Shown here piece after piece: positions 12,676 through 34,026 of a stretch of DNA of 34,026 bases (positions within the stretch are counted from its first letter, which is position 1; each line of letters begins with the position of its first letter). The position numbers and the translations under genes were made by a program. The stretch lies in assembly GCF_007829435.1 (NCBI RefSeq), contig NZ_VLJN01000007.1, forward strand, positions 53,802-87,827, read 5' to 3'. The notes beneath the pieces are model-generated. The model had not been told where the DNA came from and ran no database searches. It saw nothing but the letters and a program-made list of their open reading frames with translations. The stretch comes from Cupriavidus gilardii J11 (GTDB lineage Bacteria > Pseudomonadota > Gammaproteobacteria > Burkholderiales > Burkholderiaceae).

Positions 12676-12700
12676 AGAGGGGCGCGTCGCGCCCCCTCTC
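12676..12700 (+). terminator. Terminator-like hairpin after yfdX2
   Basis: AGAGGGGCGCG, then T, then CGCGCCCCCTCT form a strong stem with one bulge. The following bases are TTGTCCC, and a real T-rich run begins only about 18 bases later, so termination may be partial. hdeD begins at 12753, and the T/A-rich stretch before it may also hold a promoter. Confidence 0.5.
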
Positions 12701-12752
12701 TTGTCCCATGAGTGTTTGATTTTTTATTTTGTAGATCTTTAGGAGATATTGC

Positions 12753-13364: not shown

Positions 13365-13381
13365 GAGCGGGTCAAACTAGA

Positions 13382-13422
13382 TTCTATGGATATGAGCATT
13401 TTCGGTTCGTGCCTCCATAGAA
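13382..13422 (+). promoter_or_regulatory. Leader hairpin upstream of the HPF-like gene
   Basis: TTCTATGGA (13382-13390) and TCCATAGAA (13414-13422) form a perfect 9-bp stem around a 23-base loop. It ends eight bases before the AAAGGAG ribosome-binding site of the next gene. It has no T tract. A mainly A/T stem this close to a ribosome-binding site could be a temperature-sensitive or protein-binding leader element. Confidence 0.4.
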
Positions 13423-13443
13423 ATGACATCAAAGGAGTCATGC

Positions 13444-14589
13444 ATGCAGATTCAATATAGATTTCGAGCTATCGACAAAGAGTTTCATGAACCATGGCAG
13501 AGAGCTTTGGGAAATGTGATCGAGCACGCCCTCAAGCCATTGCTCGACAAACACACTAAAGATTCAGCGCAACTTCAAATCGTCCTTGATCGCGACAAGA
13601 TCAAGCGGCAATTTCTGGCCAGTGGCTATATGCACCTGCCCGGCAAAAAGATTGTCAGCGTTACTGCATCACATGACGAGCTGACGCCCCTCGCGCAGAT
13701 GCTCGCACAGTCGTTGTTCCGTCAGGCCAAGAAGCATTTTGACCGGCTGCATGCTCAGGATCAAATCAAGCGCAAAGCACGACGCGAGCGCTTGCGCGAG
13801 CTCAAGGTGCGAATTGCTGCAAAACCCGCGTCAGCCGCCCATGAGGCCAAAGAGACCCGAATGCCTCTACTGTCGAAACTTGAGGCTGTCGCAAGGCGTG
13901 AGCTGGCTTATCTGCGGGCCGTCGGCGATTTACCGCGCGATTATCCGACGCTGCGCGACGTGGTGGATGAAGCGATTGTCCGAGCTGAGGTGGAATGGCA
14001 ATCCGTGCCGGGGGAAAAAGAGGCTTACACCGGTCTTTTGAAGCATCTGTTCGCCGTCCTGGATAACGAAGTGGCAAGCAGCCGGCAATTTGGCGAATTC
14101 GTTTCTCTGGACGCGCCGGTCGAAGCGGATGCCCAGGACGTGGCCGAGGCCATGGTGGAAGAGGAAATCTTCGAATTTTATCAGCCCGATGACACACTCA
14201 GGCTGGCCGATATTATCGCTGACAGTCAGCATCCCGATGCCGCAACGATCGCGGAACAGGAGGAGCTAGTTGATCGGTCGAGCGAGTTCGCTTTTGCATT
14301 CGACCTGCTGAAGGACATGCCGCGTTTGTGGCGGCGCGTTTTTCTGCTTCTCCGTGTGGACGGGCTGGATGCCAGCAGCGTCTCTGAAATCCTGCTGATT
14401 CCTAGTAAGGAAGATACTGTCCAAAGGTGGCTGATGCAGGCCGAAGCGTTTATCGCTGCTCATTTGGAAGAGGCCGGAGTAAGCAAAGACGGGAACGATT
14501 GGCTCCAAGGCGTTGATTGGTCGGCATTGTCTGTGACCCGAAGCGCGGCAGCCTCACTGTGGTCCAAGGAGGCGAACCATGAAGAATGA
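13444..14589 (+). CDS. Two-part protein: HPF/RaiA-like N-terminus and sigma-like helical C-terminus
   Basis: A 381-residue protein. Residues 1-110 resemble ribosome hibernation factors of the S30AE/HPF class: an opening strand MQIQYRFRAID, helix, strand LQIVLDRD, strand FLASGYMHLPGKKIVSVTAS, and a final basic helix (AKKHFDRLHAQDQIKRKARR). Residues 150-381 are helical and acidic. Near 285-340 (FAFDLLKDMPRLWRRVFLLL, then DASSVSEILLIPSKEDTVQR) they look like sigma-70 region 4, with a helix-turn-helix. Ribosome-directed stress silencing combined with a transcription-like domain is therefore suggested, but neither function is proven. AAAGGAG six bases before ATG 13444 decides the start over an in-frame ATG at 13423. 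It overlaps the thioredoxin gene by 11 bases. Confidence 0.75.
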   Translation: MQIQYRFRAIDKEFHEPWQRALGNVIEHALKPLLDKHTKDSAQLQIVLDRDKIKRQFLASGYMHLPGKKIVSVTASHDELTPLAQMLAQSLFRQAKKHFDRLHAQDQIKRKARRERLRELKVRIAAKPASAAHEAKETRMPLLSKLEAVARRELAYLRAVGDLPRDYPTLRDVVDEAIVRAEVEWQSVPGEKEAYTGLLKHLFAVLDNEVASSRQFGEFVSLDAPVEADAQDVAEAMVEEEIFEFYQPDDTLRLADIIADSQHPDAATIAEQEELVDRSSEFAFAFDLLKDMPRLWRRVFLLLRVDGLDASSVSEILLIPSKEDTVQRWLMQAEAFIAAHLEEAGVSKDGNDWLQGVDWSALSVTRSAAASLWSKEANHEE

Positions 14590-15019
14590 TCTTCACCTCG
14601 TCTGTCCGCATTGCCAGTCCATCAACCGCGTACCGACTGCGAAGCTATCGGAACATCCCAACTGCGGCCGCTGCCAGCAGCCCTTGTTCACGGGCGAACC
14701 CATCGAGTTGACCACGGCGACGTTCTCGCGCCACGTGGAGCGCAGCGACCTGCCACTGTTGGTCGATTTCTGGGCACCTTGGTGCGGGCCGTGCAAGATG
14801 ATGGCCCCGCAGTTCCAGCAAGCGGCGCGCCAGCTCGAACCCAGGGTCAGGCTGGCCAAGGTCAATACCGAGGCAGAACCCCACCTGGCCGCGCAGTTCG
14901 GCATCCGCAGCATTCCGACGCTCGCCCTGTTCCAGGGTGGGCGGGAGATCGGGCGTCAGGCTGGCGCCTTGGGCGCGCAGGACATCGTGCGCTGGGCATC
15001 TGCACAGGTGGGGCGCTGA
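14579..15019 (+). CDS. trxC: Zinc-binding thioredoxin (Trx2/TrxC type)
   Basis: A 146-residue thioredoxin. The N-terminal zinc ribbon has CPHC (about residues 10-13) and CGRC (about 30-33), as in thioredoxin 2. The thioredoxin fold follows, with active site WCGPC (about 68-72) and the cis-proline segment IRSIPTLALFQGG. It reduces disulfides in oxidised cytosolic proteins. Zinc-type thioredoxins are linked to oxidative and chlorine stress, which fits the island. A strong AAGGAGG lies before ATG 14579 although the start is inside the preceding gene (11-base overlap), indicating translational coupling. The kefB-like gene starts three bases after its stop. Confidence 0.94.
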   Translation: MKNDLHLVCPHCQSINRVPTAKLSEHPNCGRCQQPLFTGEPIELTTATFSRHVERSDLPLLVDFWAPWCGPCKMMAPQFQQAARQLEPRVRLAKVNTEAEPHLAAQFGIRSIPTLALFQGGREIGRQAGALGAQDIVRWASAQVGR

Positions 15020-15022
15020 CCG

Positions 15023-16738
15023 ATGCAGGACTTGCTCGGCGCCACCCTGATCCTGCTGGCGGCATGCAGCCTCGCGGATGTGGCGACGGCGGCGTTCAGA
15101 GTACCCGCCTTGCTGGGTTACCTCGCCGTCGGCGCCTTGCTGGGCCCGTCGGTCAGCGGTGTAGTCGCGCCGGGAGAAGCGCTTGATTTTCTGTCCGAGC
15201 TGGGCGTGGCCCTGCTGCTGTTCATGGTTGGGCTGGAGTTCTCCCTCGGGCACTTCTGGCTTTCCCGTAAAACCGTATTGGCGGCCGGCAGCTTGCAGAT
15301 GATCGCTGTCGCCACGCCACTGACCTTGATGTTGATGTGGCTGGGACAGCCAGTTCAGCGCGCTGCGTTGCTCAGCACTGCGGCGGCCATGTCGTCCACG
15401 GCGCTGGTCAGCCGACAGCTGGCCGACCAAGGCGAGCTCACCACCCGCCACGGCCGCAGCGCCATCGCCGTGCTGGTCTTTCAGGACCTGGCCAGCGTGC
15501 CCCTGCTGGCCCTGCTGGCGATCTGGGCGCGCGGCGAGTCGCCGAAGATCGAGAGCGTGCTGCTCGAAGTGTTGGGCGTGCTGATGTTGTTCGCGGCAGC
15601 GGCCCTCGCCTCCCGTCGTCTGTTGCATGGCCTGCTGGGCTGGGTGGCGCGGCAGGGCCACGAAGAATCCTTCGTGCTGGTTTCCTTGTGCGTGGTGGTG
15701 GCTGCCGCCGCTGCTGCACACGCGGTCGGCGTATCCGCCGCCCTGGGTGCGTTTTTGGCCGGCATGGTGCTGGGCGAGAGCGACTTCCGTCACCACATGG
15801 AAAGCCACCTCAAACCGTTTCGCGATGTGTTGTCGGGGGTGTTCTTCGTGACCATCGGCCTGCAGTTGGACGGAGCGCAGATTCTTTCGGCACCACTGGC
15901 GGTGTTCGCGTGGCTGGCAGTGCTGGTACCGGTCAAGATCGGGCTCAACACCCTGGCCTTGCGGGCGACGCGCCTGTCCGCCCTCGATGCCTGGCGCACG
16001 GGCATAGCGTTGGGGCATGGCGGCGAGTTCGCCCTGCTGTTGTTGGGCATGGTCTTGCAGCAGCATCTGATTCCCGCGACCGTCGTACAACCCATGCTGG
16101 TCGCGCTGGTGCTCAGCATGGCCTTGGCACCGCTGCTGATCCGCCATCACGATGTACTTGCCCGGTTCTTGAGCCGCACCGGCGGCGTCATTCAGCCACC
16201 CCAGGCTGAAGAAGTTGAGATCACCGCGCAGACAGCGCGATTTCGAGACCACGTCATCATCTGCGGCGCGGGCGAGCTTGGCCTGACCGTCAGTGAGATT
16301 CTTCGCCACGCCGGCGTGGCGCATCTGCTGCTGGAAGCAGACGAGCAGAAGGTAGAGGCCGAGCGTGCCGCCGGCGTGCCGATGTTCCATGGCGATGCGA
16401 GTCGGCCCGATACCCTGCTGGCTGCCGGGTTGGCGCAAGCGCGTCTGGTGGTGCTCACGTTCGCCCATGCCCAGCAAGTGCTGCGCATCGCCCAGGCGAT
16501 TGCCGAGCGCCGTCCGGCGCTGACCTTGTGGGTGTCATGCAGAAGTACGACCGCGGCCGATGCATTTCGCGCGATGCCCAACGTGCGTGTGTACCAGCAA
16601 TCCTTTGCCGCAGGCCTTGGGCTGGCGGAACAAGTGATGTCGTCGCTTGGCATGTCGGCCGAGCTCGTCGAACGAAACATCAGTGCGATGCGCCGCCGTC
16701 TCGACAGCGGCAATGTCGCAGGGAGTCCATCTGCATGA
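15023..16738 (+). CDS. kefB: KefB-like CPA2 cation/proton antiporter with RCK domain
   Basis: A 571-residue monovalent cation:proton antiporter-2 family protein. Residues about 1-385 hold some twelve transmembrane helices (LLFMVGLEFSLGHFWLSRKT and ALGAFLAGMVLGESDFRHHM are family hallmarks). A cytosolic Rossmann RCK_N/TrkA-N domain follows at about 408-525 with HVIICGAGELGLTVSEIL. Members of this family export potassium in exchange for protons, acidifying the cytosol to protect against electrophiles. That suits a locus with a thioredoxin next to it. No ancillary KefF/KefG gene is present. ATG 15023 follows the thioredoxin stop by three bases. The stop overlaps the psiE start as ATGA. Confidence 0.93.
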   Translation: MQDLLGATLILLAACSLADVATAAFRVPALLGYLAVGALLGPSVSGVVAPGEALDFLSELGVALLLFMVGLEFSLGHFWLSRKTVLAAGSLQMIAVATPLTLMLMWLGQPVQRAALLSTAAAMSSTALVSRQLADQGELTTRHGRSAIAVLVFQDLASVPLLALLAIWARGESPKIESVLLEVLGVLMLFAAAALASRRLLHGLLGWVARQGHEESFVLVSLCVVVAAAAAAHAVGVSAALGAFLAGMVLGESDFRHHMESHLKPFRDVLSGVFFVTIGLQLDGAQILSAPLAVFAWLAVLVPVKIGLNTLALRATRLSALDAWRTGIALGHGGEFALLLLGMVLQQHLIPATVVQPMLVALVLSMALAPLLIRHHDVLARFLSRTGGVIQPPQAEEVEITAQTARFRDHVIICGAGELGLTVSEILRHAGVAHLLLEADEQKVEAERAAGVPMFHGDASRPDTLLAAGLAQARLVVLTFAHAQQVLRIAQAIAERRPALTLWVSCRSTTAADAFRAMPNVRVYQQSFAAGLGLAEQVMSSLGMSAELVERNISAMRRRLDSGNVAGSPSA

Positions 16739-17232
16739 AGTCAACAGGCCGCAATCCATTTCAGGTCTTCCGTGGCCAATGGGCCATCATGAGTTTATAC
16801 GAGCGCTTCGAGCAGGTCGTCGCCCTCGTTCTGTCGGCGGTAATTGCCGTCATCGTCGTGGTGTCGCTGTTCCAGCTCATCGCCATCGTCTTTACGCTGC
16901 TGGTCCTCAATGCCTTCAATCCCCTGGATCACAAGGTATTCCAGAGTGTGTTCGGCATGATCATGACGCTCTTGATCGCGATGGAGTTCAAGCATTCCAT
17001 CGTGCGCGTGGCGCTGCGTCGGGACAGCATCATCCAGGTCAAGACCGTGATCCTCATCGGTCTGATCGCGCTGGCGCGCAAGTTCGTGATCCTTGACCCC
17101 GAGGCGAGCCCAGCAAAGATAGCCGCGCTGGCAGGCGCCACGCTGGCTCTGGGTGCGACCTACTGGCTGCTGCGCGAGCGCGGCGACCGCGCCGCCGAGA
17201 CCTCTGAGCATGACCCGTCATCATCCCAGTGA
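16735..17232 (+). CDS. psiE: PsiE family membrane protein
   Basis: A 165-residue membrane protein with about four helices (VALVLSAVIAVIVVVSLFQL, FTLLVLNAF, FGMIMTLLIAMEF, and VKTVILIGLIALARKFVI) and a polar C-terminus. The pattern MEFKHSIVRV and the ARKFVILD motif are typical of PsiE (phosphate-starvation-inducible E), whose function is unknown. The ATG at 16735 forms an ATGA overlap with the kefB stop, supporting coupled translation and this start. Its 3' end overlaps the next gene by 23 bases. PsiE is a constant passenger of stress-tolerance islands. Confidence 0.88.
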   Translation: MKSTGRNPFQVFRGQWAIMSLYERFEQVVALVLSAVIAVIVVVSLFQLIAIVFTLLVLNAFNPLDHKVFQSVFGMIMTLLIAMEFKHSIVRVALRRDSIIQVKTVILIGLIALARKFVILDPEASPAKIAALAGATLALGATYWLLRERGDRAAETSEHDPSSSQ

Positions 17233-18175
17233 TCCGCGGACGGCGCTGTTGCAACACCGCTGGCTCAACCGCCTGCAGACCGGGCTGTTGGTCCTGACCC
17301 TGGTCGGGATCGCAGCCGCCGCAGGAAGCCTGCTGTTCGGGGAAAGCGGCCTGTGGCTCGCGCTGTTTGCCGTTGCAGGTGCGTTGCTGCTGGAACCGGT
17401 AGCCGCGTCGGCGCTGAGCTTGCGCCTGTACCGCGTACGGGCCTTGCACCCGCAAGAAGCCCACGAGATGTGGGCCCTGTTGCGCGAGCTGCCCGCCCGT
17501 GCCGGTTTGCCCGCCACGCCGGTGCCGCACTATGTGCCCAGTGCCGTCGTCAACGCCTTCGCCACCGGATCGAAGCAGGAGGCATCGATCGCCCTCACCG
17601 ATGGCCTGCTGCGCAGCCTGAGCCCACGCGAGCTGGCGGGTGTGCTCGCGCACGAGATCGCGCACATCACCAATGAGGATCTGCGCGTCATGGGGCTGGC
17701 GGATTCCGTCAGTCGCCTCACGAGCCTGCTGGCCCTTATGGGACAGATCGCGATCCTGCTGAGCCTGCCCGCGCTGCTGGTTGGCGCGGCGGAGGTCTAT
17801 TGGCCTGGTTTATTGTTATTGGCCGCATCGCCCCAGCTGGCCCTGCTCGCACAGCTCGGCTTGTCTCGCGTGCGTGAGTTCGACGCTGACCGCCTCGCTG
17901 CGGAACTGACTGGCGACCCGCAGGGGCTTGCGTCCGCGCTGGCGAAAATCGAGCTGGCCAGCCGCTCCTGGCGTGCCTGGTTGTGGCCGGGATGGGGCAA
18001 TCCCGAACCCTCCTGGTTGCGCACGCATCCGGCCACGCAAGAACGCATCTCACGCCTACTGACGTTGGCGTCTGGGCCAGCATCGGCGTTGCCACTCCAC
18101 GCGCCCCATTTCTTGCCGGAATCCGCTTTGACGCCGCGCCCACCGCGCTGGCGCCCGAGCGGGCTGTGGCGCTGA
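17210..18175 (+). CDS. M48 family membrane zinc metallopeptidase (HtpX-like)
   Basis: A 321-residue peptidase. Two N-terminal membrane helices (about 20-60) are followed by the M48 catalytic region with ELAGVLAHEIAHITNEDLRV (H-E-x-x-H at about 148-152) and, after two further membrane helices (about 180-225), EFDADRLAAELTGDP, which provides the third zinc ligand. HtpX-type enzymes cleave misfolded membrane proteins and work beside FtsH. The C-terminal stretch with RTHPATQERISRLL is also standard for M48B. The start at 17210 lies inside psiE, a 23-base overlap. degP follows after 24 bases. The symbol htpX is not given because this island copy is distinct from housekeeping HtpX. Confidence 0.92.
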   Translation: MTRHHPSDPRTALLQHRWLNRLQTGLLVLTLVGIAAAAGSLLFGESGLWLALFAVAGALLLEPVAASALSLRLYRVRALHPQEAHEMWALLRELPARAGLPATPVPHYVPSAVVNAFATGSKQEASIALTDGLLRSLSPRELAGVLAHEIAHITNEDLRVMGLADSVSRLTSLLALMGQIAILLSLPALLVGAAEVYWPGLLLLAASPQLALLAQLGLSRVREFDADRLAAELTGDPQGLASALAKIELASRSWRAWLWPGWGNPEPSWLRTHPATQERISRLLTLASGPASALPLHAPHFLPESALTPRPPRWRPSGLWR

Positions 18176-18199
18176 TTGCCTATCAACAGGAGACTTCTC

Positions 18200-19345
18200 A
18201 TGGCCTACCCCGACCCGTACCAACGTCCCGCGCCGGACCACTTCGTCCGGCGCTGGCTCTTCATCACCGCCTGTATTGCCGCGCTCATGCTGCTGTGGCA
18301 GTTCCTGCCCGCCATCGAGGCCTGGTTCAGTCCGCGCGAGGCGGCAGAACGCACTGTGACGGCGCGTGGCGATCTGGCGGCGGACGAGAAAGCCACCATC
18401 GAACTGTTCGAGAAATCGCGCGCCTCGGTGGTCTACATCACTACCGCACAATTGGTACGCGATGTCTGGACGCGCAACGTCTTCTCCGTGCCGCGCGGCA
18501 CTGGCTCGGGCTTCATCTGGGACGACGCCGGCCACGTCGTCACTAACTTCCACGTCATCCAGGGCGCGTCCGAAGCCACCGTCAAACTGGCCGACGGCCG
18601 CGACTACCAGGCCGCACTGGTGGGGACGAGCCCCGCGCACGACATCGCTGTGCTCAAGATCGGCGTCAAGCGCCCGCCGGCCGTGCCGGTCGGCACCAGT
18701 GCCGACCTCAAGGTGGGTCAGAAGGTGTTCGCTATCGGCAACCCCTTCGGCCTGGACTGGACGCTCACCACCGGCATTGTCTCCGCGCTCGACCGCTCGT
18801 TACCCGGAGAAGCGGGCGGCCCGGCCATCGATCACCTGATCCAGACCGACGCCGCCATCAACCCTGGCAACTCCGGTGGGCCGCTGCTCGATTCGGCAGG
18901 AAGGCTCATCGGCATCAACACGGCGATCTATAGCCCCTCCGGCGCCTGGGCCGGGATTGGTTTCGCCGTGCCGGTGGACACCGTCATGCGCGTAGTCCCG
19001 CAACTCATCAAGACCGGGAAGTACATCCGTCCGGCGCTGGGCATTGAGGTGGACGAACAGCTCAATCAGCGCCTGCTGGCGCTGACTGGAAGCAAGGGCG
19101 TGTTCGTGTTGCGTGTTACCCCTGGTTCGGCAGCGCACAAGGCCGGCCTCGCGGGTGTCGAAGTCACGCCGCAAGGCATCGTGCCGGGCGACCGCATCAT
19201 CGATGTTGATGGCCAGGCGACGGACGATGTGGCCAAGCTGCTCGCGCGGCTAGACGAGAGGAAGGTCGGCGATGTGGTGGTCTTGTCATTGGAACGGGCC
19301 GGCAAATCGCGCGAGGTGCGTGTGGAGCTGCAACCCGGGAATTGA
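18200..19345 (+). CDS. degP: DegP/HtrA-like S1C serine protease, membrane-anchored
   Basis: A 381-residue trypsin-like periplasmic protease. An uncleaved N-terminal anchor (RRWLFITACIAALMLLWQFL, about 18-37) precedes the chymotrypsin-fold domain with catalytic His near 118 (VVTNFHVIQ), Asp near 148 (AHDIAVLKI) and Ser near 225 (GNSGGPLL). One C-terminal PDZ domain follows (about 285-375). It degrades or holds misfolded envelope proteins. A single PDZ and a membrane anchor make it closer to DegS in layout, though DegP is the usual island name. CAGGAG precedes ATG 18200 by seven bases. It is the last gene of the 16.3-kb array. Confidence 0.93.
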   Translation: MAYPDPYQRPAPDHFVRRWLFITACIAALMLLWQFLPAIEAWFSPREAAERTVTARGDLAADEKATIELFEKSRASVVYITTAQLVRDVWTRNVFSVPRGTGSGFIWDDAGHVVTNFHVIQGASEATVKLADGRDYQAALVGTSPAHDIAVLKIGVKRPPAVPVGTSADLKVGQKVFAIGNPFGLDWTLTTGIVSALDRSLPGEAGGPAIDHLIQTDAAINPGNSGGPLLDSAGRLIGINTAIYSPSGAWAGIGFAVPVDTVMRVVPQLIKTGKYIRPALGIEVDEQLNQRLLALTGSKGVFVLRVTPGSAAHKAGLAGVEVTPQGIVPGDRIIDVDGQATDDVAKLLARLDERKVGDVVVLSLERAGKSREVRVELQPGN

Positions 19346-23354: not shown

Positions 23355-24059
23355 ATGCCAGTCACCGATCCCGAAACTATCCATCCCGCTCTCTGGCGCG
23401 CCTCCCAGCTTGCACGGGGCTCCGGTCGCACCATCGCTGCGGGAGACAAGGCGCTCGCCGGAGAACTGCCGGGGGGCGGCTGGCCCCTCGGCACACTGGT
23501 GGAACTGCTGGTCCAGCAACCAGGCGTCGGCGAACTTCGCTTGCTGCGAGACGCCCTCCTGGCGCTAGGGGAAAGGCCGGTCGCCCTGCTCTCCCCACCC
23601 CATCCGCCCCAGGCGCTGGCTTGGGAGAATTGGGGTATTCCGGCTGACCGGCTGCTGTGGCTCCGGCCGCAACGGACCGCCGACCTGCTGTGGGCCGCTG
23701 AGCAGCTGCTACGCGCGGGCACGTGCGGTGCGGTGTTGTGCTGGCAGCAGCATGTTCGGGGCGAGTCGTTGCGCCGTTTGCATCTGGCGGCGCAGACCAG
23801 CGAGACGCTCTTCTGTCTGGTACGCCCTTCTGCTTGCGCTCGCGATAGTTCGCCAGCGCCACTGCGCGTGGCTATAGCACCGGCGCCCGGTGGCGTGGAT
23901 CTGACGTTTATTAAGCGCCGAGGGCCTCAACAGGAGGTGCCGCTCCGGCTCGCCCTGGAGCCATCACCGATTCTCTTGTCTCGTCATGCAGCACCTGTGG
24001 ATTTGCCTGCGCCTGCCGTCGCTACCCCTCGAAGTCTTCCGGCCGAACTGGTCAATTGA
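23355..24059 (+). CDS. imuA: ImuA, SOS mutagenesis accessory protein
   Basis: A 234-residue RecA-like protein that starts PETIHPALWRASQLARGSGR and contains ELPGGGWPLGTLVELLVQQP and ENWGIPADRLLWLRPQRTAD. These are diagnostic of ImuA from beta- and gammaproteobacteria. It works with ImuB and DnaE2 in error-prone translesion synthesis. The Walker A region is degenerate (no G-K-T/S), as is usual for ImuA. Expression should be LexA-controlled through the box at 23311. Its 3' end overlaps imuB by 74 bases in another frame, a long overlap that implies tight coupling. Confidence 0.93.
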   Translation: MPVTDPETIHPALWRASQLARGSGRTIAAGDKALAGELPGGGWPLGTLVELLVQQPGVGELRLLRDALLALGERPVALLSPPHPPQALAWENWGIPADRLLWLRPQRTADLLWAAEQLLRAGTCGAVLCWQQHVRGESLRRLHLAAQTSETLFCLVRPSACARDSSPAPLRVAIAPAPGGVDLTFIKRRGPQQEVPLRLALEPSPILLSRHAAPVDLPAPAVATPRSLPAELVN

Positions 24060-25449
24060 GCTGCCGGCGGTTGTGCTCGAACAGGAAAAGGTCATCCACG
24101 CTTCGCCGAGCGCTCGCGCCGGTGGTGTGCGGCATCTGATGCGCCGCGGTGGCGTGCAGACGATCGCACCCAACACCCTGCTCTTCGACCGCGCGCCAGC
24201 GAAGGAAGAGGAGACCCTCAACCGCGTCGCCATCGCGCTGCTGCAGTATTCCCCGCACGTCGTACCCGCCGACGAAGCGGCGGTGCTGATCGATGTGTAC
24301 GCGAGCCTTCGGCTTTTTGGCGGCATCCGCAAGCTGAGGCGACGCATGCGTCGAACGGTGGAGACCATGGGGTTCTCCTGTTGGCTCGGCTGCGCCCCAA
24401 CTGCTCAGGGCGCCTGGCTGCTGGCCGCCGCGGGCGGCGGCACGGCGCTGTCGCCCGCCTCGTTGGCCCGGCAACTGGCGTCTTTGCCGGCCGGCCTGTT
24501 GCCAGCAGCGCGCGCACATCGTGACTGGTTCGATGGCTTGGGATGCCGAACACTGGGCCAGATCCGGCAACTGGCCCGCGCAGGCCTGCAGCGCCGTTGC
24601 GGCGATGCGATCAATGACGCTCTCGACCGCGCGCTGGGTGAGGCACCGGAAATATTCGACTGGCTCCAGACGCCTGCGTCCTTCACGGCTCGCGTTGAGT
24701 TGCCCGACCGCATCGAGCACGCGGAGGCCACGCTCGCCTACGCCAATAGCCTGATCGCGCAGCTGATCGGCTGGCTGACGGCGCGTCAGCTCGCGCTGAC
24801 CCGCTTTGTCGTGGCCCTCGAGCACGAACGCGGCCGAGAGGCGCTGGCGCCGACGGAAATCGATATCGCGCTGGCCGAGCCGGCTTGGCACGACGAGCAC
24901 CTGACGCGGCTGCTGCGCGAGCGGCTGGCGCGCCTGGAGGTCGCGGCGGCCATGATCGCGGTCCGGTTGACGGTCACCGACGTGCAGCCAATGGCGCCGC
25001 CGAGTGAGACGCTCTTTCCCGAGCCCGGCGGCAAGCCGGAAGACCACGCGCGCGTGATGGAGCTGCTGGTCGCGCGGCTGGGTGCCGAGCATGTCCTGAA
25101 ACCCGCGACGCGTGCCGACTACCGACCGGAGCACGCGAACGCATGGGTCCCCATCACCGAAGCGGCCGCGCCGGTGCCGCCGCCATCCGGTCTGCCCCGG
25201 CCTGCCTGGCTGCTCGCCAAGCCGGTGGCCCTGCTGACTCGAAACAACCGCCCATTCTATGGCTCCCCGCTGCGTCTTGTTTCCCCACCCGAGCGCATTG
25301 AGGCGGGCTGGTGGGATGGCCAGTTGGTGACCCGTGATTACTTCGTCGCGGAGGGCGGCGACCACAGTCACTATTGGATCTACCAGGAACGCCTGGGCAG
25401 CCGTGACGGCGACGCGGTGCGCTGGTATTTGCACGGCCTCTTCGGTTAG
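23986..25449 (+). CDS. imuB: ImuB, catalytically dead Y-family polymerase-like adaptor
   Basis: A 487-residue Y-family-like protein. It starts MQHLWICLRLPSLPLEVFRP, where active polymerases have an aspartate-containing motif. The later S-x-D-E motif is replaced by LIDVYASLRLFGG. The loss of metal-binding carboxylates is the family norm: ImuB acts as a scaffold linking the beta clamp, ImuA and DnaE2. The palm/fingers-like part covers about 1-230, a little-finger-like region follows, and the C-terminal block holds YGSPLRLVSPPERIEAGWWD, then RDYFVAEGG and WYLHGLFG. It starts inside imuA and ends eight bases before dnaE2. Confidence 0.94.
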   Translation: MQHLWICLRLPSLPLEVFRPNWSIELPAVVLEQEKVIHASPSARAGGVRHLMRRGGVQTIAPNTLLFDRAPAKEEETLNRVAIALLQYSPHVVPADEAAVLIDVYASLRLFGGIRKLRRRMRRTVETMGFSCWLGCAPTAQGAWLLAAAGGGTALSPASLARQLASLPAGLLPAARAHRDWFDGLGCRTLGQIRQLARAGLQRRCGDAINDALDRALGEAPEIFDWLQTPASFTARVELPDRIEHAEATLAYANSLIAQLIGWLTARQLALTRFVVALEHERGREALAPTEIDIALAEPAWHDEHLTRLLRERLARLEVAAAMIAVRLTVTDVQPMAPPSETLFPEPGGKPEDHARVMELLVARLGAEHVLKPATRADYRPEHANAWVPITEAAAPVPPPSGLPRPAWLLAKPVALLTRNNRPFYGSPLRLVSPPERIEAGWWDGQLVTRDYFVAEGGDHSHYWIYQERLGSRDGDAVRWYLHGLFG

Positions 25450-25457
25450 GGGCGACC

Positions 25458-28400
25458 GTGCCTTCTCCAAACACAGGCGAGCTTGGCGCCCTGCCCGGCT
25501 ACGCCGAACTGCAGTGCCGCTCGAATTTCAGTTTCCTGGAGGGTGCCTCTCGCGCCGAAGAACTGGTCGAACGCGCCGCAGCACTGGGCTACCACGCGCT
25601 GGCGATCACGGATGAGTGTTCGCTGGCGGGCATTGTCCGGGCGCACACTGAGGCAAAGACGCATGGCCTGAAACTGTTGGTGGGTTCTTCGTTCCGACTC
25701 GTGAACGCGGACGGCAGCCCTGCCCTGTCGTTCGTTGCGCTAGCTCGCAATCGCGAAGGCTACGGCAATCTATGCGAGCTCATTACACTGGGGCGAACAC
25801 GCACCGCCAAGGGCAGCTACTGGCTGACGCCACGCGACCTCGAGGCACCAGAAGGCGATGCGGCGCACCTACGAGGCCTGCCCGACTGCCTGATCGTGTT
25901 CACCCCCGAGTACGGCACGGCGCCGGAGCGCCTGCACGCGCAGGCGGCGTGGGTCGCGCGGACCTTTGCCGGCCGCGCATGGATGGGCCTCAGCCTGCTG
26001 CATCGCCCGCTCGACGACCTGCATCGTGCCGCCGTGTACGAGGCGGCAGCAGCGAACCATCTTCGGCTGGTGGCCACCGGCGACGTGGTGATGCACGTGC
26101 GCTCGCGCAAGCCGCTGCAGGACGTGCTCAGCGCGATTCGGATCGGCAAGCCAGTCGGTGATTGCGGCTACGCGCTGATGCCCAATGCGGAGCGCCATCT
26201 GCGCTCGCGCCTGCGACTGGCGAACCTTTACCCCAGCCGGCTGCTAACCGAGTCGGTCCATATCGCGAACCTGTGCCAGTTCTCACTGGATGAGCTGCGC
26301 TACGAGTATCCCGACGAGGTGATCCCGGACGGCACCACGCCCACAGACTATCTGCGGCGCGAGACTTATATCGGTGCCCACCGTCGCTTTCCGTTGGGCA
26401 TTCCGCACACGGTGCAGGAACAGATCGAGCACGAGCTCGCGCTGATCCGCGACATGGCCTACGAGCCCTACTTCCTGACTGTCTACGATATCGTTCGCTT
26501 CGCTCGCTCCAACGGCATCCTGTGTCAGGGGCGCGGCTCGGCCGCCAACTCGGCGGTGTGCTACTGCCTTGGCGTTACGGAGGTCGATCCAGCGCGCGGC
26601 AACTTGCTGTTCGAGCGCTTCATTTCCAAGGAGCGTGGTGAGCCGCCCGATATCGACGTCGACTTTGAGCACCAGCGCCGCGAAGAGGTGATCCAGTACC
26701 TGTACCGCAAATACGGACGCGACCGCGCCGCGTTGGCGGCCGCGGTATCCACCTACCGGCCGCGCGGGGCGCTACGTGAAGCTGGCAAGGCCTTAGGTGT
26801 CGATCCCGCCATCGTCGACCTGGTGGCGAAGTCTCACCATTGGTTCGATAGCCAAGCCGACCTGCTCAAGCGCTTTGCCGAGAGCGGCGTTGACATGGAA
26901 AGCGAGCTGACCCAGCGCTGGGCCGCGATGACCGTCCAGATGTTGGGCTTTCCGCGACATCTGTCACAGCATTCTGGCGGCTTCGTGCTGGCGCGCGGCA
27001 AGCTGTCACGGCTTGTGCCGATCGAGAACGCGGCGATGCCGGATCGCAGTGTCATCCAGTGGGATAAGGACGACCTGGACGCCGTGGGCTTGCTCAAGGT
27101 CGACGTGCTGGCGTTGGGGATGCTGTCGGCCATTCGGCGCGCGCTGGATGTCGTGGCTGCGCAGCGCGGTGAGGTTTTTGAACTGCAGGACATCCCTGCC
27201 GAGGACCCTGAGACGTACGAGATGCTGTGCCGCGCCGATTCGATGGGTGTCTTTCAGGTCGAATCGCGGGCGCAAATGTCGATGCTGCCCAGGCTGCGGC
27301 CGCGTACTTTCTACGACCTGGTGATCGAGGTGGCCATCGTGCGCCCAGGCCCAGTCCAAGGCGGAATGGTCCATCCCTACCTGCGCCGGCGGCAAGGAAA
27401 GGAACCGGTTTCCTATCCCAGTCCGGCCATGGAGAAGGCATTGTCCCGGACGTTGGGCGTGCCGATTTTTCAGGAGCAGGTGATGCAGGTTGCCATGCTG
27501 GCCGCGGGCTTTTCAGCCGGGGAAGCGGACCAGCTGCGCCGGGCAATGGCGGCGTGGAAGCGCAAAGGCGGATTGGGCGGTTACCATGAACGCATCGTGT
27601 CGGGCATGCTGGAGCGGGGGTATGACCGTGAGTTCGCCGAGGGCATATTTCAACAGATTCAAGGGTTCGGCGAGTACGGCTTCCCGGAGAGCCATTCGGC
27701 CAGCTTCGCGCTGCTCGTGTACGCAAGCGCCTGGCTGAAATGCCATGAGCCAGCGGCCTTCCTTTGCGCTCTGCTCAATAGCCAGCCGATGGGGTTTTAC
27801 ACCCCCTCGCAGCTGATCCAGGACGCACGTCGTCACGGCATCGAGACGTTGCCTGCCGACGTCACGATCAGCGACTGGGACTCCGCGCTGGAAGGCGGCC
27901 CGCCGCCGGCAGTGCGACTCGGCTTATCGTTGGTGAGAGGCATGCGCCAGGATGCCGCGCGCCGCATCGTCGAGGCGCGCGCGGTGCAGCCTTTCGCCTC
28001 CGTCGGTGACATGGCGCGCCGCGCCCGGCTCGATCGGCACGACCTTCAGGTGCTGGCCGCGGCCAATGCACTGGAAGGTCTGGCGGGCGATCGCCGGCAG
28101 GCGCTGTGGCAAGCGAGCATTGCGGTGCCGGACAAGGATCTCTTGCGCCCGACGACAATAACCGAGGATGCCCCTTCCCTGTCATCGCCAACAGAGGCGG
28201 AGAGCATCGTTGCGGATTACCGCACGATGGGACTGACGTTGCGGCGCCACCCGCTTTCTCTGCTTCGCGGCAGACTGGCCGCGCAGCGTTTCGAATCAGC
28301 GGCAATACTATCGGCCTATTCAGACAGGCAGATCGCCCGCTGCGCCGGCTTGGTGACGGTGCGCCAGCGACCGGGGACGGCAAATGGCGTCATGTTTATG

Positions 28401-28610
28401 ACGCTCGAGGATGAAACCGGCACGGTGAACGTGATCGTTTGGCCCAGCATCCTGGAGAAATTCCGCAAGGAGTTCCTTGGGGCGTCACTAATCGGAATCT
28501 ATGGACAGTGGCAAGCCGATGGCGACGTGAAGCACCTCGTCGCGCAGAGGGCCGTTGACCTGTCCATGATGCTCGGAGCCTTGGATACCCGTAGCCGCAA
28601 TTTCTGCTGA
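25458..28610 (+). CDS. dnaE2: DnaE2, error-prone DNA polymerase III alpha-like subunit
   Basis: A 1050-residue C-family polymerase from GTG 25458. It has an N-terminal PHP domain ([20 protein letters not shown], about 14-290), a polymerase core with the catalytic [16 protein letters not shown] near 397 and the [15 protein letters not shown] loop, a tandem HhH region, and a C-terminal OB fold ([20 protein letters not shown]) ending RSRNFC. Length and order are normal for DnaE2. It is the polymerase of the ImuA-ImuB-DnaE2 mutasome induced by DNA damage. A frameshifted copy of its last 125 or so codons lies at 31919-32325, so this is the intact member of what were two loci. No clear terminator was seen after the stop. 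Confidence 0.96.
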
Positions 28611-29710: not shown

Positions 29711-29775
29711 CCGACTTCACCCAGGGACCTTGATGGGATATCCGACGTTGTCAAGAACACTGTAGCGGTCGCCAC
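29515..29775 (-). CDS. Small hypothetical protein (full-length relative of the right-edge gene)
   Basis: An 86-residue protein from GTG 29775 whose first base pair overlaps the stop of the Abi-like gene (TAGTG). The conserved core is GHSEIFPEAQCVSDGKWCVF followed by DGREVWGCNSLYAAAHFDCL. It is nearly identical to the partial protein at 33880-34026, which supports real coding. Three cysteines in the core suggest a disulfide or metal site. Its function is not known. It seems to be the second gene of a minus-strand operon led by the Abi-like gene. The N-terminal 35 residues are less certain, and a later start is possible. Confidence 0.6.
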   Translation of the reverse strand: MATATVFLTTSDIPSRSLGEVGQRYTHEPTLLSAAANGHSEIFPEAQCVSDGKWCVFFRDGREVWGCNSLYAAAHFDCLSDGEWIP

Positions 29776-30653
29776 TATTGCTCGTTGGTGCTGGACCGGT
29801 CTTCGCTAGATTCGCAGCGCAGTTGGGGCGTTTGATTGGTCTCCCCTTGCAAGGCTTGGATCCGCCCACGCATGGCTTCCGCTCGATCGTGCAGTTCGGC
29901 CATCTCCGGCTGAAGCAACTTCTCCAGTGGCGTCGCTCCGTCGATGCCGCGCACGCCAAGATGCCGGGCAACGAAATCGAACGCCGCTTCGGTCTCCCGT
30001 AGGCGGCGCCCATAGACAGGCTCGTGATGGGCGATCCGATTGCGGCATTGATAGATTGCCTCCAAATGGCGGGCGACCTCAGGCCGTGTGATAGCCTTGT
30101 GCGGGAAGACGCGTTTAAGCGCGGGCCTCCACAGCGATTGTTCGTAGTCGGGCGAGAACAGGCGCTTCCAGAAGTACATGGTGAGTTGCGCGACCACTTG
30201 CCCCATCGGCACTTGTATCGCGGCCTGCCGAGCCTTGGACTGTTCATCATCCGGGGTGCCAGGCGGCGCGACGCCACCTTGATTCTCATATGCAACGGCA
30301 TCTAGGGAACGCTTCTGCTCCTGGGTCAGCTTCGCGTAGGCCGCCTGTCGCGCACTCTTCTCCGCGCGTCGGATCTTTTGCCGCTCCTCCCCGCCCCACA
30401 CGAAGCGCTCGGGCGGGTTTCGAAGCCAATCTGCCGTGCCAAAATGCTCGGTGAGCTGGTCGCAGACCGCGTTGCGCAGCGCGATCTCCACGACGGCCGT
30501 GACGGTCATCAGGGCGGCGGCCAGGCGCAGCATCTCTTGATGCAGCGCGATCGCGCCGCGGTTGGAACCGGCAAGGCGCTCGAAGGTGCTGAGTCGCTCG
30601 CTCGACAGCAGTGCTGACACCGCAGCCAGTTCTTCGTCGTTCAGATGGTCCAT
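29775..30653 (-). CDS. Abi-like HEPN-domain protein
   Basis: A 292-residue protein of the Abi-like (abortive infection) class. The N-terminal helical part has SERLSTFERLAGSNRGAIAL and VTAVVEIALRNAVCDQLTEH. The C-terminal half carries LEAIYQCRNRIAHHEPVYGR, in which R204-N-R-I-A-H209 is an R-x4-H HEPN ribonuclease motif. HEPN proteins of this type typically cleave RNA upon phage infection or act as toxin halves. The target is unknown here and no antitoxin was recognised, although the small gene behind it is tightly coupled. ATG 30653 with GGAAG four bases upstream is preferred. A start at 30686 is possible. A candidate small RNA is transcribed away from it. Confidence 0.8.
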   Translation of the reverse strand: MDHLNDEELAAVSALLSSERLSTFERLAGSNRGAIALHQEMLRLAAALMTVTAVVEIALRNAVCDQLTEHFGTADWLRNPPERFVWGGEERQKIRRAEKSARQAAYAKLTQEQKRSLDAVAYENQGGVAPPGTPDDEQSKARQAAIQVPMGQVVAQLTMYFWKRLFSPDYEQSLWRPALKRVFPHKAITRPEVARHLEAIYQCRNRIAHHEPVYGRRLRETEAAFDFVARHLGVRGIDGATPLEKLLQPEMAELHDRAEAMRGRIQALQGETNQTPQLRCESSEDRSSTNEQ

Positions 30654-30674: not shown

Positions 30675-30703
30675 TTGACTCCGCAAGCAAAATTCCTTAC
30701 ATT
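30675..30703 (+). promoter_or_regulatory. Candidate sigma-70 promoter for a small RNA
   Basis: TTGACT (30675-30680) and TACATT (30698-30703) are separated by exactly 17 bases. The expected start of transcription is about 30709-30711, directly before the structured region ending in a T-rich hairpin. Confidence 0.5.
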
Positions 30704-30708
30704 AGGAA

Positions 30709-30805
30709 CCGAAAAGTCGGGACCAGGTTGGCAGCCGCCTCTAGGGGTGGGCGGACCCCCGACTTCCTGCTTTTGGGGCGCTCTGCGGAGCGCCCTTCTC
30801 ATTTT
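30709..30805 (+). ncRNA. Candidate structured small RNA between the two Abi genes
   Basis: After the promoter, AAGTCGGG (30714-30721) pairs with CCCGACTT (30758-30765). Inside, CCGCC (30735-30739) pairs with GGCGG (30750-30754). Ten bases later a perfect 8-bp hairpin (GGGCGCTC, TGCG, GAGCGCCC; 30776-30795) is followed by TTCTCATTTT, a moderate terminator. Frames over this stretch are short and unconvincing as protein. The layout reminds me, from memory only, of the C4/CI-type immunity RNAs of P1- and P4-like phages. It lies antisense to the gap between two minus-strand genes, so it is transcribed against them. Confidence 0.5.
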
Positions 30806-30812: not shown

Positions 30813-31721
30813 TCACGACAGACCGAGATAGGCCGCAATGGCCTTGGCAATGCCGGCGGCAGCCACCTCGACGGCGATCCCCGAGGCGCCAGTGGCGGCC
30901 TTGCCGATGAGTGTGCCCAGCCAACGTAGCGGCTTGCCTTCCATCCCGGACGCGGTCTGTCGCGCCTCATCCAGATCTGCTTGCAGCCCCGCCAGGTCGG
31001 CGTCCTTTAGACCGAGCGACTGCAGTGAGCGCCGTAGCGCGTCCCAATCCCCCGCCTCGGCGTTCACCTGAGCATGCTGCGAGAAGCCGATGCTGCCGTT
31101 GGAGATATTGCCAACGTGGCCGGTGATGTTAGTGTTAAATATCTGTGTCATTCTCGGCTCACTAATGGGCTGAGCACCGATGGGAGACTCCCCCGCCTCT
31201 GGGTCCTCCTTCTCGATGTCGATTGCAAATCCAAGCACCCGCGTCTTGATGGCATCGAGAAGGCTGTCAATGAGCCCCGCGGGCAACAGCTTCCACGCCT
31301 TGATGCACTGCATGTCAACAGCAGCTTTCGAGCCGTACCGGACTGCGAATTCGCTGGGCCACTCCTCTCTCGGGTTTTGCCCCGGCTCGGCGGCAGCTAG
31401 CCGCTGATAGGCGCTTACCGGCGCATTCAACCTAGCCGCACTGAACAGTTCGCGAAGGTCGGAAGGCAGCACGCTGAGCGGAATCTGCAGCGTGCATTGG
31501 CGGCCGAAGGCGCCGACAAAGTGCCCGAACGACAACACATTGGCCCGCCGATAGTCGGGCAGCTCGACGTCTTTCGGATATCCGTTCAACTCATAGTCGA
31601 CCCACTGCGCAAACTGAGCGTGGCCCAGCCGCGCCGCCAACAGCTTACACATGCGCAAGAGACGAGAAACGTCCGTCGAGGGGCCGATTGCCGCAGCCTG
31701 GATATCTTGGATCAGTGTCAT
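30813..31721 (-). CDS. AbiTii-domain protein with hydrophobic C-terminal segment
   Basis: A 302-residue protein. Residues 1-200 match the AbiTii domain, starting MTLIQDIQAAAIG, then LLRMCKLLAARLGHAQFAQW, ELNGYPKDVELPDYR and a second half with MQCIKAWKLLPAGLIDSLLD. AbiTii is named after a lactococcal abortive-infection determinant. Around 220-240 there is an Asn/Gly-rich segment (FNTNITGHVGNISNGSIGFS), and the last 38 residues are Gly/Ala-rich and hydrophobic (GTLIGKAATGASGIAVEVAA), suited to membrane insertion or assembly. A defence role with a membrane effector is inferred. ATG 31721 is chosen because the family begins there. The frame stays open for 50 further residues inside the imu-leader repeat. 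Confidence 0.8.
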   Translation of the reverse strand: MTLIQDIQAAAIGPSTDVSRLLRMCKLLAARLGHAQFAQWVDYELNGYPKDVELPDYRRANVLSFGHFVGAFGRQCTLQIPLSVLPSDLRELFSAARLNAPVSAYQRLAAAEPGQNPREEWPSEFAVRYGSKAAVDMQCIKAWKLLPAGLIDSLLDAIKTRVLGFAIDIEKEDPEAGESPIGAQPISEPRMTQIFNTNITGHVGNISNGSIGFSQHAQVNAEAGDWDALRRSLQSLGLKDADLAGLQADLDEARQTASGMEGKPLRWLGTLIGKAATGASGIAVEVAAAGIAKAIAAYLGLS

Positions 31722-32359: not shown

Positions 32360-33310
32360 TTATGCCTTACGCGCCAACGGGTACACCTTGGTTTCAAAAT
32401 ACGGGACGGCTGGATCATCATCGGGAATCACTGAAATCAACTCATCGATGATGCTCGATGTAAGAGGTTCACCCTTGATGTGAATTTTTGGGTGCTCGTG
32501 GATGGGGGTTATCGCTTCAGTAGCCGAGGTTGGGTGAATATCCCACCCCTCCGTCACAATACCCGCCAGCCCCCAACCATCGCGACATGTCCAAAGAATT
32601 GGGCCGCCGCTCATACCGCTGAGATTGTTCGCTTCGGGCAGACTTTCAAGCTCGGCCTGTAGCCGCAATGACGATTCGCACGCTGCTTCAAACGGGGCAA
32701 CTGCGACTACCGTCGGCATGCTAAGCTTCTGCACATTCCCGTCGCTTTTACGAGAAATCCGACTTTGCTCCGGGAAACCAGTAGCTATTCCGCCCAAGTG
32801 AGGTAAGGAATTATCAGGCGGCATACCGATCCGATTGAATGGAATAGCTTCCCGCCCAATCTTAGCAAAGGTCTCGCTCGTAATGCGCGCTATTGCCAGA
32901 TCCTTCCCTTGGTCGGTAAAGTTATCGATCCAGGCCGGATAGAACTTCGCGTTGATGTGAATCTGCTCGGTCAGCGTCGGATATCGGAATCCAAGAAAGC
33001 CACCCACTGGCGGAACGATCTTGGGTAAGGTCTTACGGAAACTGGCCTCCTCTTTCTCCAATGCATCAAGCACGTGCCGGCATGTAATTCCATACACCTG
33101 ATTGTCGCGCTGGACAAACGTTAGGGTGCCGCTCCTTACTTTCGGCTGCTGACCCGCCGTGGCAATAAGGTCGCCCTCTCTTCTCAAGTTGAGACCGAAT
33201 GAATTGGTGATGTAGATCGGAATGCAAAATCGATAGCTGTTGACCTGGCCGGACCCATCTTCGAGGTCGTCGTGAATGCAGATTTTATCGCTCGTTGTAT
33301 CAGTGGTCAT
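32360..33310 (-). CDS. Cytoplasmic trypsin-like serine protease
   Basis: A 316-residue protein without signal peptide or membrane helix. The trypsin-fold catalytic residues are visible: His79 (YGITCRHVLDAL), Asp137 (QGKDLAIARI) and Ser234 (NLSGMSGGPILW). No PDZ domain follows, unlike DegP. The rest is a strand-rich body and a short C-terminus ending VYPLARKA. GC content is visibly lower than in the flanking genes, indicating horizontal transfer. Stand-alone trypsin-like domains of this sort occur among phage-defence and stress genes. A defence role is only suggested by the AbiTii and HEPN neighbours. ATG 33310 is chosen. A TTG twelve bases upstream is less likely. It is convergent with the dnaE2 remnant. 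Confidence 0.75.
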   Translation of the reverse strand: MTTDTTSDKICIHDDLEDGSGQVNSYRFCIPIYITNSFGLNLRREGDLIATAGQQPKVRSGTLTFVQRDNQVYGITCRHVLDALEKEEASFRKTLPKIVPPVGGFLGFRYPTLTEQIHINAKFYPAWIDNFTDQGKDLAIARITSETFAKIGREAIPFNRIGMPPDNSLPHLGGIATGFPEQSRISRKSDGNVQKLSMPTVVAVAPFEAACESSLRLQAELESLPEANNLSGMSGGPILWTCRDGWGLAGIVTEGWDIHPTSATEAITPIHEHPKIHIKGEPLTSSIIDELISVIPDDDPAVPYFETKVYPLARKA

Positions 33311-33434
33311 TTTAACGTCCAAGTGCGGAGCACCAGCAGGGAGGCAGCGGCTTTGAGTAGCGCAAGGAAGAGAGCCGCGATCGAATGGCCTACGTCACCT
33401 GCGATATATCTGCCTAATGGAGTTAGGGCACGAC

Positions 33435-33530: not shown

Positions 33531-33830
33531 TTAACCTTGCTCGATGCGAAATTTCTCGCGATTCTTTCCCAGCCAACCAGGAGCACGACCACGACCTGAC
33601 CAAGTCTTTCCAGTTTTCGGGTCTTGATACATAGGGACGGACTCGGATGGTGCCTTGCTACGCGGGCGGCCCCGCCCGCGACGGCGGGTCAGGTCGTCAA
33701 CCGTCAGACCATACAGGTCCATGAGACCGTGGATCTGCTGGATTGCCGCACCCACTTCAGCCTTGCGCGCCTCTTCCAATTGTGCTTCCAGTGCTTCCTT
33801 TTGTGCCAATAGCTCTTTATACGTCGTCAT
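33531..33830 (-). CDS. hns: H-NS family nucleoid protein
   Basis: A 99-residue H-NS-type protein. An N-terminal coiled coil for oligomerisation (YKELLAQKEALEAQLEEARK) is followed by a linker and the C-terminal DNA-binding domain. It carries an AT-hook-like RRRGRGRPRSK and the signature YQDPKTGKTWSGRGRAPGWL, common in betaproteobacterial H-NS. Such proteins bind AT-rich foreign DNA and silence it, so this one probably silences the AT-richer protease and Abi region beside it. GGAGA is well placed before ATG 33830. A strong terminator follows. The upstream 50 bases and the neighbouring gene recur at 29463-29710 with hns lost. Confidence 0.9.
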   Translation of the reverse strand: MTTYKELLAQKEALEAQLEEARKAEVGAAIQQIHGLMDLYGLTVDDLTRRRGRGRPRSKAPSESVPMYQDPKTGKTWSGRGRAPGWLGKNREKFRIEQG

Positions 33831-34026
33831 ACTATTCTCCGAGAGGTAATGGAGTGTAGCCACGGGCGGTCTAAGGGGTTTATTCCCCATGCGAGACGAA
33901 GTCAAAGTGGGCCGCCGCGTAAAGCGGATTGCAACCCCACACTTCTCGACCGTCGCGATAAAAGACGCACCACTTACCATCGCTGACGCACTGAGCCTCT
34001 GGGAAGATCTCGCTATGGCGTTGGCG
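33820..34026. repeat. Diverged direct repeat, right copy (partner 29463-29710)
   Basis: The small gene, the GAGAGGTAAT gap and the hns start region are matched by 29463-29710. The alignment reaches the window edge, so the right copy may extend further. Confidence 0.75.
33880..34026 (-). CDS. Small hypothetical protein, C-terminal part (runs off right edge)
   Basis: The last 48 codons of a minus-strand gene end at TAA 33880-33882. The product reads HSEIFPEAQCVSDGKWCVFY, then DGREVWGCNPLYAAAHFDFV and ends SHGE. It is nearly identical to the 86-residue protein at 29515-29775, differing in few positions and at the extreme C-terminus. The N-terminus is outside the window. It lies 49 bases upstream of hns in the same direction, so the two may be co-transcribed. 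The function is not known. Confidence 0.65.
   Translation of the reverse strand, partial: RQRHSEIFPEAQCVSDGKWCVFYRDGREVWGCNPLYAAAHFDFVSHGE

Follow-up and report, generated by a model that had tools for sequence, protein, structure and literature searches.

Within the window analysed here, a stretch of 34,026 nucleotides from Cupriavidus gilardii J11, two genes of the Abi type on the minus strand are separated by a short interval that carries a promoter, inverted repeats and a T-rich hairpin on the plus strand. This arrangement raised the questions of whether the element is a genuine RNA gene, to which gene it belongs and what its product may do. A first-pass annotation had read it as a structured small RNA with its own promoter and terminator, and had considered a phage-derived immunity RNA, a satellite remnant or an antitoxin-like control of the neighbouring HEPN gene as possible roles. 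The features referred to below are the following:

29775-30653, minus strand: HEPN RNase gene, AbiF/Abi_2/PD-T4-5-like, encoding a proposed toxin of 292 aa with the motif RNRIAHH
30675-30703, plus strand: sigma-70-type promoter, TTGACT-17-TACATT, identified by site scan; its hexamers are kept across loci and its spacer drifts
30711-30800, plus strand: small RNA gene, predicted product of ~90 nt, called by fold, covariation and a score of 94.5 bits to covariance model R1, a score that is not independent because the model includes this very RNA sequence
30714-30721 with 30758-30765, plus strand: stem P1, 8 bp, closing the RNA body; 99.3% of alignment cells paired, two-sided changes in 4/8 pairs
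30722-30725, plus strand: 5' bulge, candidate protein-contact site; identity 0.96 over 12 loci although unpaired
30726-30731 with 30752-30757, plus strand: stem P2, with GGCAG kept on its 5' side; 97.8% of cells paired, two-sided changes in 3/5 pairs
30735-30740 with 30745-30750, plus strand: variable hairpin P3; 89.5% of cells paired, two-sided changes in 5/6 pairs
30775-30804, plus strand: intrinsic terminator, a GC-rich hairpin (30775-30796) followed by a T-rich tail; 95.8% of cells paired
30813-31721, minus strand: AbiTii gene (AbiTii E 1.2e-37), a non-obligatory neighbour

The promoter scan retrieved the two hexamers described before, TTGACT (-35, 30675-30680) and TACATT (-10, 30698-30703), separated by 17 nt on the plus strand, with a predicted transcript start at ~30709-30711 on the same strand. 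Promoter-like sites amounted to 2 in 3 kb, as compared to 0.5 ± 0.6 in shuffled sequences; terminator-like sites overall showed no clear excess (4 versus 2.4 ± 2.0 in shuffles). The predicted fold of the RNA was better than that of dinucleotide shuffles (z -2.58; 2/200 equally good). As annotated previously, the RNA is encoded on the plus strand and both adjoining genes, HEPN and AbiTii, on the minus strand. The HEPN start codon of the window lies 21 bp before the -35 box of the RNA promoter; in 16/22 loci read, the window not being one of these 16, the -35 box overlaps the HEPN start codon itself (CATTGAC).

To judge the element by its conservation, we compared it among relatives. The RNA is found in soil and plant bacteria, namely in Cupriavidus, Paraburkholderia, Rhizobium/Shinella/Agrobacterium, Methylobacterium and Xanthomonas. 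A DNA search of 60 Cupriavidus genomes yielded 11 RNA copies in 8 genomes, and one copy was found on a Cupriavidus oxalaticus plasmid (81% identity over 84% of the 261-base query). The genome of the window itself holds a second copy (L016:9275-9361, minus strand, contig C4), the structure of which is kept and which is accompanied by an apparent HEPN stub only. Over 12 chosen loci, mean pairwise identity was 0.91 at the -35 box, 0.38 in the spacer and 0.71 at the -10 box; it reached 0.94-0.96 in the outer stem, the second stem and the bulge, 0.72 in the third hairpin, 0.76 in the 10-nt linker and 0.91 in the terminator stem, and dropped to 0.44 just past the terminator. Because promoter hexamers, stems and terminator are kept while the spacer and the downstream flank drift, the element is not a chance arrangement. 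The 8-bp outer stem of the first-pass annotation (strands AAGUCGGG/CCCGACUU) was confirmed, and its hairpin with T-rich tail was identified as the terminator at 30775-30796. The bulge reads ACCA in the window and AUCA in most alignment rows, and the loop and length of P3 differ among relatives. A consensus promoter was present in 17/19 loci of the window's group (group A, window included); terminator-like hairpins on the opposite strand were also present in 7/19 of them.

Covariation provided a further line of evidence. Using RNAalifold on 18 distinct sequences, we obtained 27 pairs, 15 of which showed changes on both sides with pairing kept. Pairing was observed in 95.9% of cells, and structures slid by 1-3 columns reached at most 53.0%, a comparison that favours the unslid structure as it was derived from the same 18 sequences. 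On none of five measures did any shuffle reach the observed value (0/500). Seven later sequences outside the model, the alignment of which leans towards the model as it was fitted to it, were paired in 95.7% of cells, again with 15 pairs carrying two-sided changes. Compensatory changes of this kind were found for P1 (including AU to CG and GC, CG to UA and GC to AU), P2 and P3. The CCGCC/GGCGG inner stem that had been proposed did not hold, since it pairs in 75.6% of cells (18 sequences) and 268/500 shuffles show an equal number of pairs with two-sided changes or more; the inner structure that is supported instead consists of P2 and the variable hairpin P3.

We also considered that the site may not specify an RNA at all but encode a small protein or act as a DNA operator, given that an 88-aa GTG open reading frame spans it on the plus strand and that the stems are also palindromes in the DNA. 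Translation of six loci showed the frames to be broken by in-frame stops and by length differences that are not multiples of three, and the small open reading frame was therefore discarded, its reading frame not being kept among relatives. Furthermore, the G-U pairs within P1-P3 and the conserved terminator point to an RNA rather than a DNA palindrome, and we regard this explanation as very improbable. Taken together, covariation and conservation profile strongly support a structured small RNA with its own promoter and terminator, and judged by its conservation the element is a genuine RNA gene.

Next, we asked whether this RNA belongs to a described family, in particular to the phage immunity RNAs it had been likened to. 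No Rfam family (release 15), C4 included, reached its gathering score in the window. At the site (301 bases, E<=10), seven Rfam matches were obtained, all far under their cut-offs and neither C4 nor abiF among them. A covariance match to the abiF RNA (RF03085; 37 bits) was found neither in the window nor at the site, nor in the loci of nine relatives, nor in L056 and L060 at E<=0.1. The RF03085 model itself works, as it scores phiC2 at 37.6 bits and L095 at 50 bits; over 21 genomes of the genus it gave no match, a result that is uninformative alone as the controls were also blank.

A C4/CI-type phage immunity RNA or a P4-satellite remnant would order promoter, stems and terminator in a similar way, and the C4/CI antisense RNAs of P1/P7 and P4 are, like the RNA described here, short, structured and followed by a terminator. 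The window RNA differs from them by the lack of a covariance match and by its linkage, as it follows the HEPN gene and not phage genes. When viral contigs were scanned once with the RNA core pattern, 0 exact matches were returned; two relatives at 19% identity were found in the viral contigs scanned, and the longest match of the element to phage records spanned 24-27 bases. The Rfam covariance search having given no C4 match, and the core motif having no exact match in viral contigs, we consider both the C4/CI-type and the P4-like readings of the first-pass annotation unsupported and extremely unlikely. Among the best matches in the open-access literature, judged by title and start of abstract, neither this RNA nor a divergent RNA beside Abi_2 genes was described, and none combined 'PD-T4-5' with 'non-coding RNA'. 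By the searches made, the RNA family is thus absent from Rfam release 15; an earlier mention in the abiF-motif or PbAbiF papers is possible.

Which gene the RNA belongs to was analyzed from both sides. Starting from the HEPN protein, a scan of genome contigs gave 13 loci, 10 of which, Paraburkholderia included, carry the RNA divergently upstream. In the other three (L050, L052 and L054) the protein matches begin at residues 17, 130 and 212, respectively, so that the HEPN N-terminus, where the RNA would adjoin, is missing or unmatched; the RNA model found nothing there save a weak terminator-like match in L052. Plasmid records with HEPN relatives numbered 207, and the RNA was divergently upstream in 7/7 records chosen for reading, namely the C. 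oxalaticus record, five of the seven with 45-48% identity (leaving out H9 and H14, the identity of which is much like that of H8 and H13) and one Xanthomonas record at 40%. The RNA is divergent from the HEPN gene in all 19 group-A loci.

Starting from the RNA, we searched overlapping draws of 369 class, 398 phylum and 249 family genomes with nothing but the covariance model. This yielded 21 distinct places, five of which hold sequences of the model (L072, L076, L111, L114 and L124) and one of which (L112) was known beforehand. A divergent HEPN gene, detected by the HEPN profile, lies beside 9/21. By score, it is present at 9/12 places with at least 52 bits and at 0/9 below, the 52-bit line having been set after the result was seen. 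Four of seven new motif-bearing places (L113, L115-L118, L120 and L077) have the HEPN gene. No HEPN gene was found at the nine places below 52 bits (L073-L075, L078 and L119-L123); among these, L120 carries the core motif and L074 and L078 show parts of it. The latter two may be diverged members of the RNA family, and the others look like terminator matches. RNAs devoid of an adjoining HEPN gene are those of L076, L117, L118, L120, L018 and L025. The link between RNA and HEPN gene is hence not absolute.

Several HEPN genes beside the RNA are broken: the one of L112 is in pieces, L116 retains an N-terminal part, L077 ends ahead of the catalytic motif, the frame is interrupted in L058, L060 is annotated as two pieces, and in L024/L010 and L019/L006 the gene is in two frames. 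Three of the HEPN-less RNAs have an apparent first-codon stub in place (residues 1-23 in L016/L076, 1-21 in L118 and 1-13 in L025), a call that rests on position as the protein matches have E values of about 0.1-0.2; the L025 stub additionally gives a 33-nt DNA match (E 5e-6). No stub was found beside the RNAs of L117, L120 and L018. The RNA thus seems to persist where toxin genes decay, as would be expected for a toxin and its antidote, though a mere relic would look alike.

By contrast, the gene that flanks the RNA on its other side varies. AbiTii adjoins the pair in the window, L023, L044, L049, L053 and partly L043; SIR2 takes its place in L003 and L045. No gene of either kind was found in L042 and L077, nor in the stretches examined from Paraburkholderia, Rhizobiaceae, Methylobacterium and Xanthomonas. 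AbiTii was therefore rejected as the partner: as the HEPN gene stays with the RNA while the other neighbour varies, the RNA belongs to the HEPN gene.

Regarding the genomic setting, an imuA, Y-family polymerase and error-prone dnaE2 cassette is found at 23355-28610 (plus strand) of the window, and this cassette is also present ahead of the HEPN-RNA pair on the C. oxalaticus plasmid NZ_CP032520, which suggests a common insertion hot spot with interchangeable AbiTii and SIR2. Further away, 4002-19345 (plus strand) encodes a ClpK-like AAA+ protease subunit, a phospholipase D, FtsH, two YfdX proteins, a Na/H exchanger, an M48 protease and trypsin/PDZ proteases, a region that presumably corresponds to a transmissible locus of stress tolerance. 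On the other side, 32360-33322 (minus strand) has a weak LmuA match (PADLOC E 1e-4) and is a possible further defence gene, and an H-NS-like protein is encoded at 33531-33980 (minus strand), adjoining the defence genes; an H-NS gene is near the pair in L003 as well.

The HEPN protein was then compared with known families. On the longer, TTG-start reading of 303 aa, it scored 24.6 bits (E 3.6e-5) against Pfam Abi_2 (PF07751), the gathering score of 25.6 not being reached; its relatives in L046, L057 and L056 scored 18.0-19.7 bits and that of L077 gave no match. The best PADLOC match was PD-T4-5 (E 8.9e-10, 36.3 bits, residues 12-216 to positions 10-207 of the 309-position profile), and AbiD was matched at E 1.4e-4. 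The HEPN RNase motif R(N/H/D)xxxH is present as RNRIAH at residues 204-209 (core R204-H209), and RNRxAH is kept in 14/15 aligned HEPN proteins, L077 stopping before the motif. Neither the protein nor alignment A2 gave a match when searched by sequence against the PDB.

We therefore turned to structure prediction. An AlphaFold2 model built on 8 sequences had a pLDDT of 83.6 and a pTM of 0.73. When 950 chains were aligned to it with VIA-align 2, the top match was PbAbiF bound to its ncRNA (8vz6_A; Z 11.3, rmsd 4.1, 209 residues), followed by a match with Z 7.0; values below about 13 can be common among helical proteins. The two proteins share 12% identity over the structural alignment. Foldseek returned no match at E<=0.001 for the model and likewise ranked 8vz6 first (probability 1.00, E 9.7e-3, TM-score 0.39, rmsd 10.8). 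The lead of the AbiF structure by 4 Z units is persuasive, a Z of 11.3 alone being no proof for a helical protein, and the HEPN protein is predicted to adopt an AbiF-like fold.

The AbiF fold raises the possibility that the RNA acts as a cofactor or guide which activates or directs the HEPN RNase in a Cas13-like manner, as AbiF proteins are proposed ancestors of Cas13 according to the portion of a review considered here (PMC12737573). EsCas13d indeed appeared among the VIA matches, at Z 5.1 and rank 12, below several unrelated proteins. The RNA is devoid of a variable guide segment, its less conserved parts being the paired P3 (0.72) and the 10-nt linker (0.76), and it outlasts decayed HEPN genes, which is more in keeping with an antidote or a relic than with an activator. 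A cofactor or guide function is accordingly quite unlikely.

What is established here is that promoter, structure and terminator form a conserved unit, that this unit is linked to the HEPN gene, and that the protein has the HEPN motif and an AbiF-like predicted fold. Together with the published AbiF systems (PMC12373285, in the part considered here), the linkage and the predicted fold favour the antitoxin-like control of the HEPN gene that had been put forward among other options. We thus propose that the RNA is probably the antitoxin of a divergent toxin-antitoxin defence module, in which it would bind an AbiF-like HEPN RNase and silence it; transcription as drawn, toxicity, RNA-protein binding and release upon infection are inferred from the published AbiF systems. 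In this model, the sigma-70-type promoter would produce a ~90-nt RNA composed of P1, the conserved 5' bulge, P2 and the variable hairpin, ahead of a strong terminator. The RNA would bind the HEPN RNase encoded back-to-back and keep the enzyme inactive, presumably contacting the HEPN dimer via the conserved bulge and the stems, by analogy with PbAbiF and RCd22; the bulge is thus a candidate site of protein contact. Given the position of the RNA promoter on or near the toxin start codon, RNA synthesis should interfere with toxin transcription, and strong synthesis would limit it, the divergent layout thereby replacing leader-terminator control. Phage infection or another insult would reduce synthesis or stability of the RNA, and the freed toxin would cleave cellular RNA and stop growth (abortive infection).

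The same promoter arrangement could serve a regulator of HEPN expression only, that is, a divergent promoter or an antisense 5'-leader RNA of a type I-like kind acting devoid of protein binding. Mutual transcription interference is indeed to be expected from a promoter that overlaps or is near the HEPN start codon, and the whole of the RNA would be complementary to any HEPN transcript coming from the AbiTii side. However, antisense action needs complementarity, which is automatic in cis, and not structure, so that the covariation and the unpaired bulge call for another reason; moreover, there is no overlap between the RNA and the HEPN coding region. We consider regulation of expression alone improbable, albeit the most serious competitor of the antitoxin model.

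Eleven more distant Abi_2-like loci were also read. Model R1 gave no match over them except for a weak one in L062 (L062:1379-1453, minus strand; 20.5 bits, E 0.015), the divergent RNA of an Acetobacter Abi_2 gene, which is a possible distant link between RNA families. A strict divergent terminator within 250 nt upstream was found in 7/11 of the distant loci (11/550 in shuffles), five of the seven having a consensus promoter on the same strand too, and in 17/19 loci of the window's group (18/950 in shuffles). At typical long Abi_2 genes, it occurred in 2/28, near the shuffled rate (26/1400); a divergent terminator is therefore not a general trait of typical Abi_2 genes. The typical set comprised 30 loci, of which L104 and L108 were dropped for want of a start; shuffles were mononucleotide shuffles, and the loci within each group are related, so that the counts are not independent. 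On the toxin's own strand, terminator-like hairpins were present in 7/19 loci of the window's group, 3/11 distant and 2/28 typical loci.

In six of the distant loci (L065, L066 and L068-L071), the divergent RNA shares the core GCGGGC-loop-GCCUCCCC, or a near form of it, inside a closing stem whose letters differ among the six. This second unit adjoins shorter Abi_2-like HEPN genes in Rhodobacterales, Pantoea, Burkholderia, Marinobacter, Herbaspirillum and Zymomonas. Rfam searches at E<=0.1 of the distant loci and two group-A loci returned PtaRNA1 only, elsewhere in L069. The few sequences at hand are suggestive of a second divergent RNA family beside smaller Abi_2-like genes, and a third kind of RNA is possible at L061, L062 and L064. 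Tentatively, and with more doubt than confidence, one may extend the model to Proteobacterial AbiF-like HEPN toxins being served by several antitoxin RNA families that are unrelated in sequence, divergent and equipped with a promoter on the toxin start codon. If so, orphan RNAs could be anti-addiction antidotes, and both the RNA partner and the gene order would have been exchanged repeatedly in the AbiF-to-Cas13 lineage.

Overall, these results add an RNA family that, by the searches made, is not in Rfam release 15 to the small set paired with AbiF-like HEPN RNases, and its layout departs from the same-strand leader of the described abiF RNA. The pairs offer ready material for studying the recognition of structured RNA by HEPN RNases, the strongly covarying RNA can serve as a marker for HEPN toxins that are otherwise poorly annotated, and the orphan copies prompt the question whether such RNAs act in anti-addiction. 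Most likely, the RNA acts as antitoxin to an AbiF-like HEPN toxin, and what is new is its RNA family and its divergent orientation.

Classical type III antitoxins consist of tandem repeats located upstream of the toxin gene on the same strand. The pair described here would resemble ToxIN and its kin in that an RNase toxin is bound by its RNA antitoxin; the window RNA differs from them by being a single unit and divergent, and no tandem repeats were evident in an own-genome search with the 191-bp element, which gave one match at this locus. PD-T4-5 is related through the protein model only, as the best PADLOC match of the HEPN protein.

The closest solved fold is that of PbAbiF-AbiFr from Prevotellaceae (PDB 8VZ6), a HEPN RNase with an RNA antitoxin, in which, following the part of the review considered here, one AbiFr is bound per monomer and nucleotides of a single-stranded bulge inhibit the RNase (PMC12737573); the two pairs were compared here by protein fold, at the 12% identity given above. 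In the AbiF system of Clostridioides difficile prophages, as far as the available portion of the report describes it (PMC12373285), RCd22 consists of two abiF motifs located upstream of abiF and co-transcribed with it, most transcription ending before the toxin; it neutralises AbiF-Cd by direct binding, in cis as well as in trans, and AbiF-Cd toxicity requires R202 and H207 of the HEPN motif. Like the abiF RNA (RF03085) and RCd22, the window RNA is a small structured RNA with promoter and terminator that adjoins an Abi_2/AbiF HEPN gene, and the association with an AbiF-type HEPN gene is thus common to both. RF03085 covers 37 positions and has no match to the window RNA. In the two abiF RNAs examined (L026 and L095), the RNA lies upstream on the toxin gene's own strand, in C. 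difficile as a leader, a layout that the window RNA does not share (RNA plus, HEPN minus). In contrast to the two motifs of RCd22, the window RNA is a single, divergent unit with its own promoter and a bulge on its 5' side.
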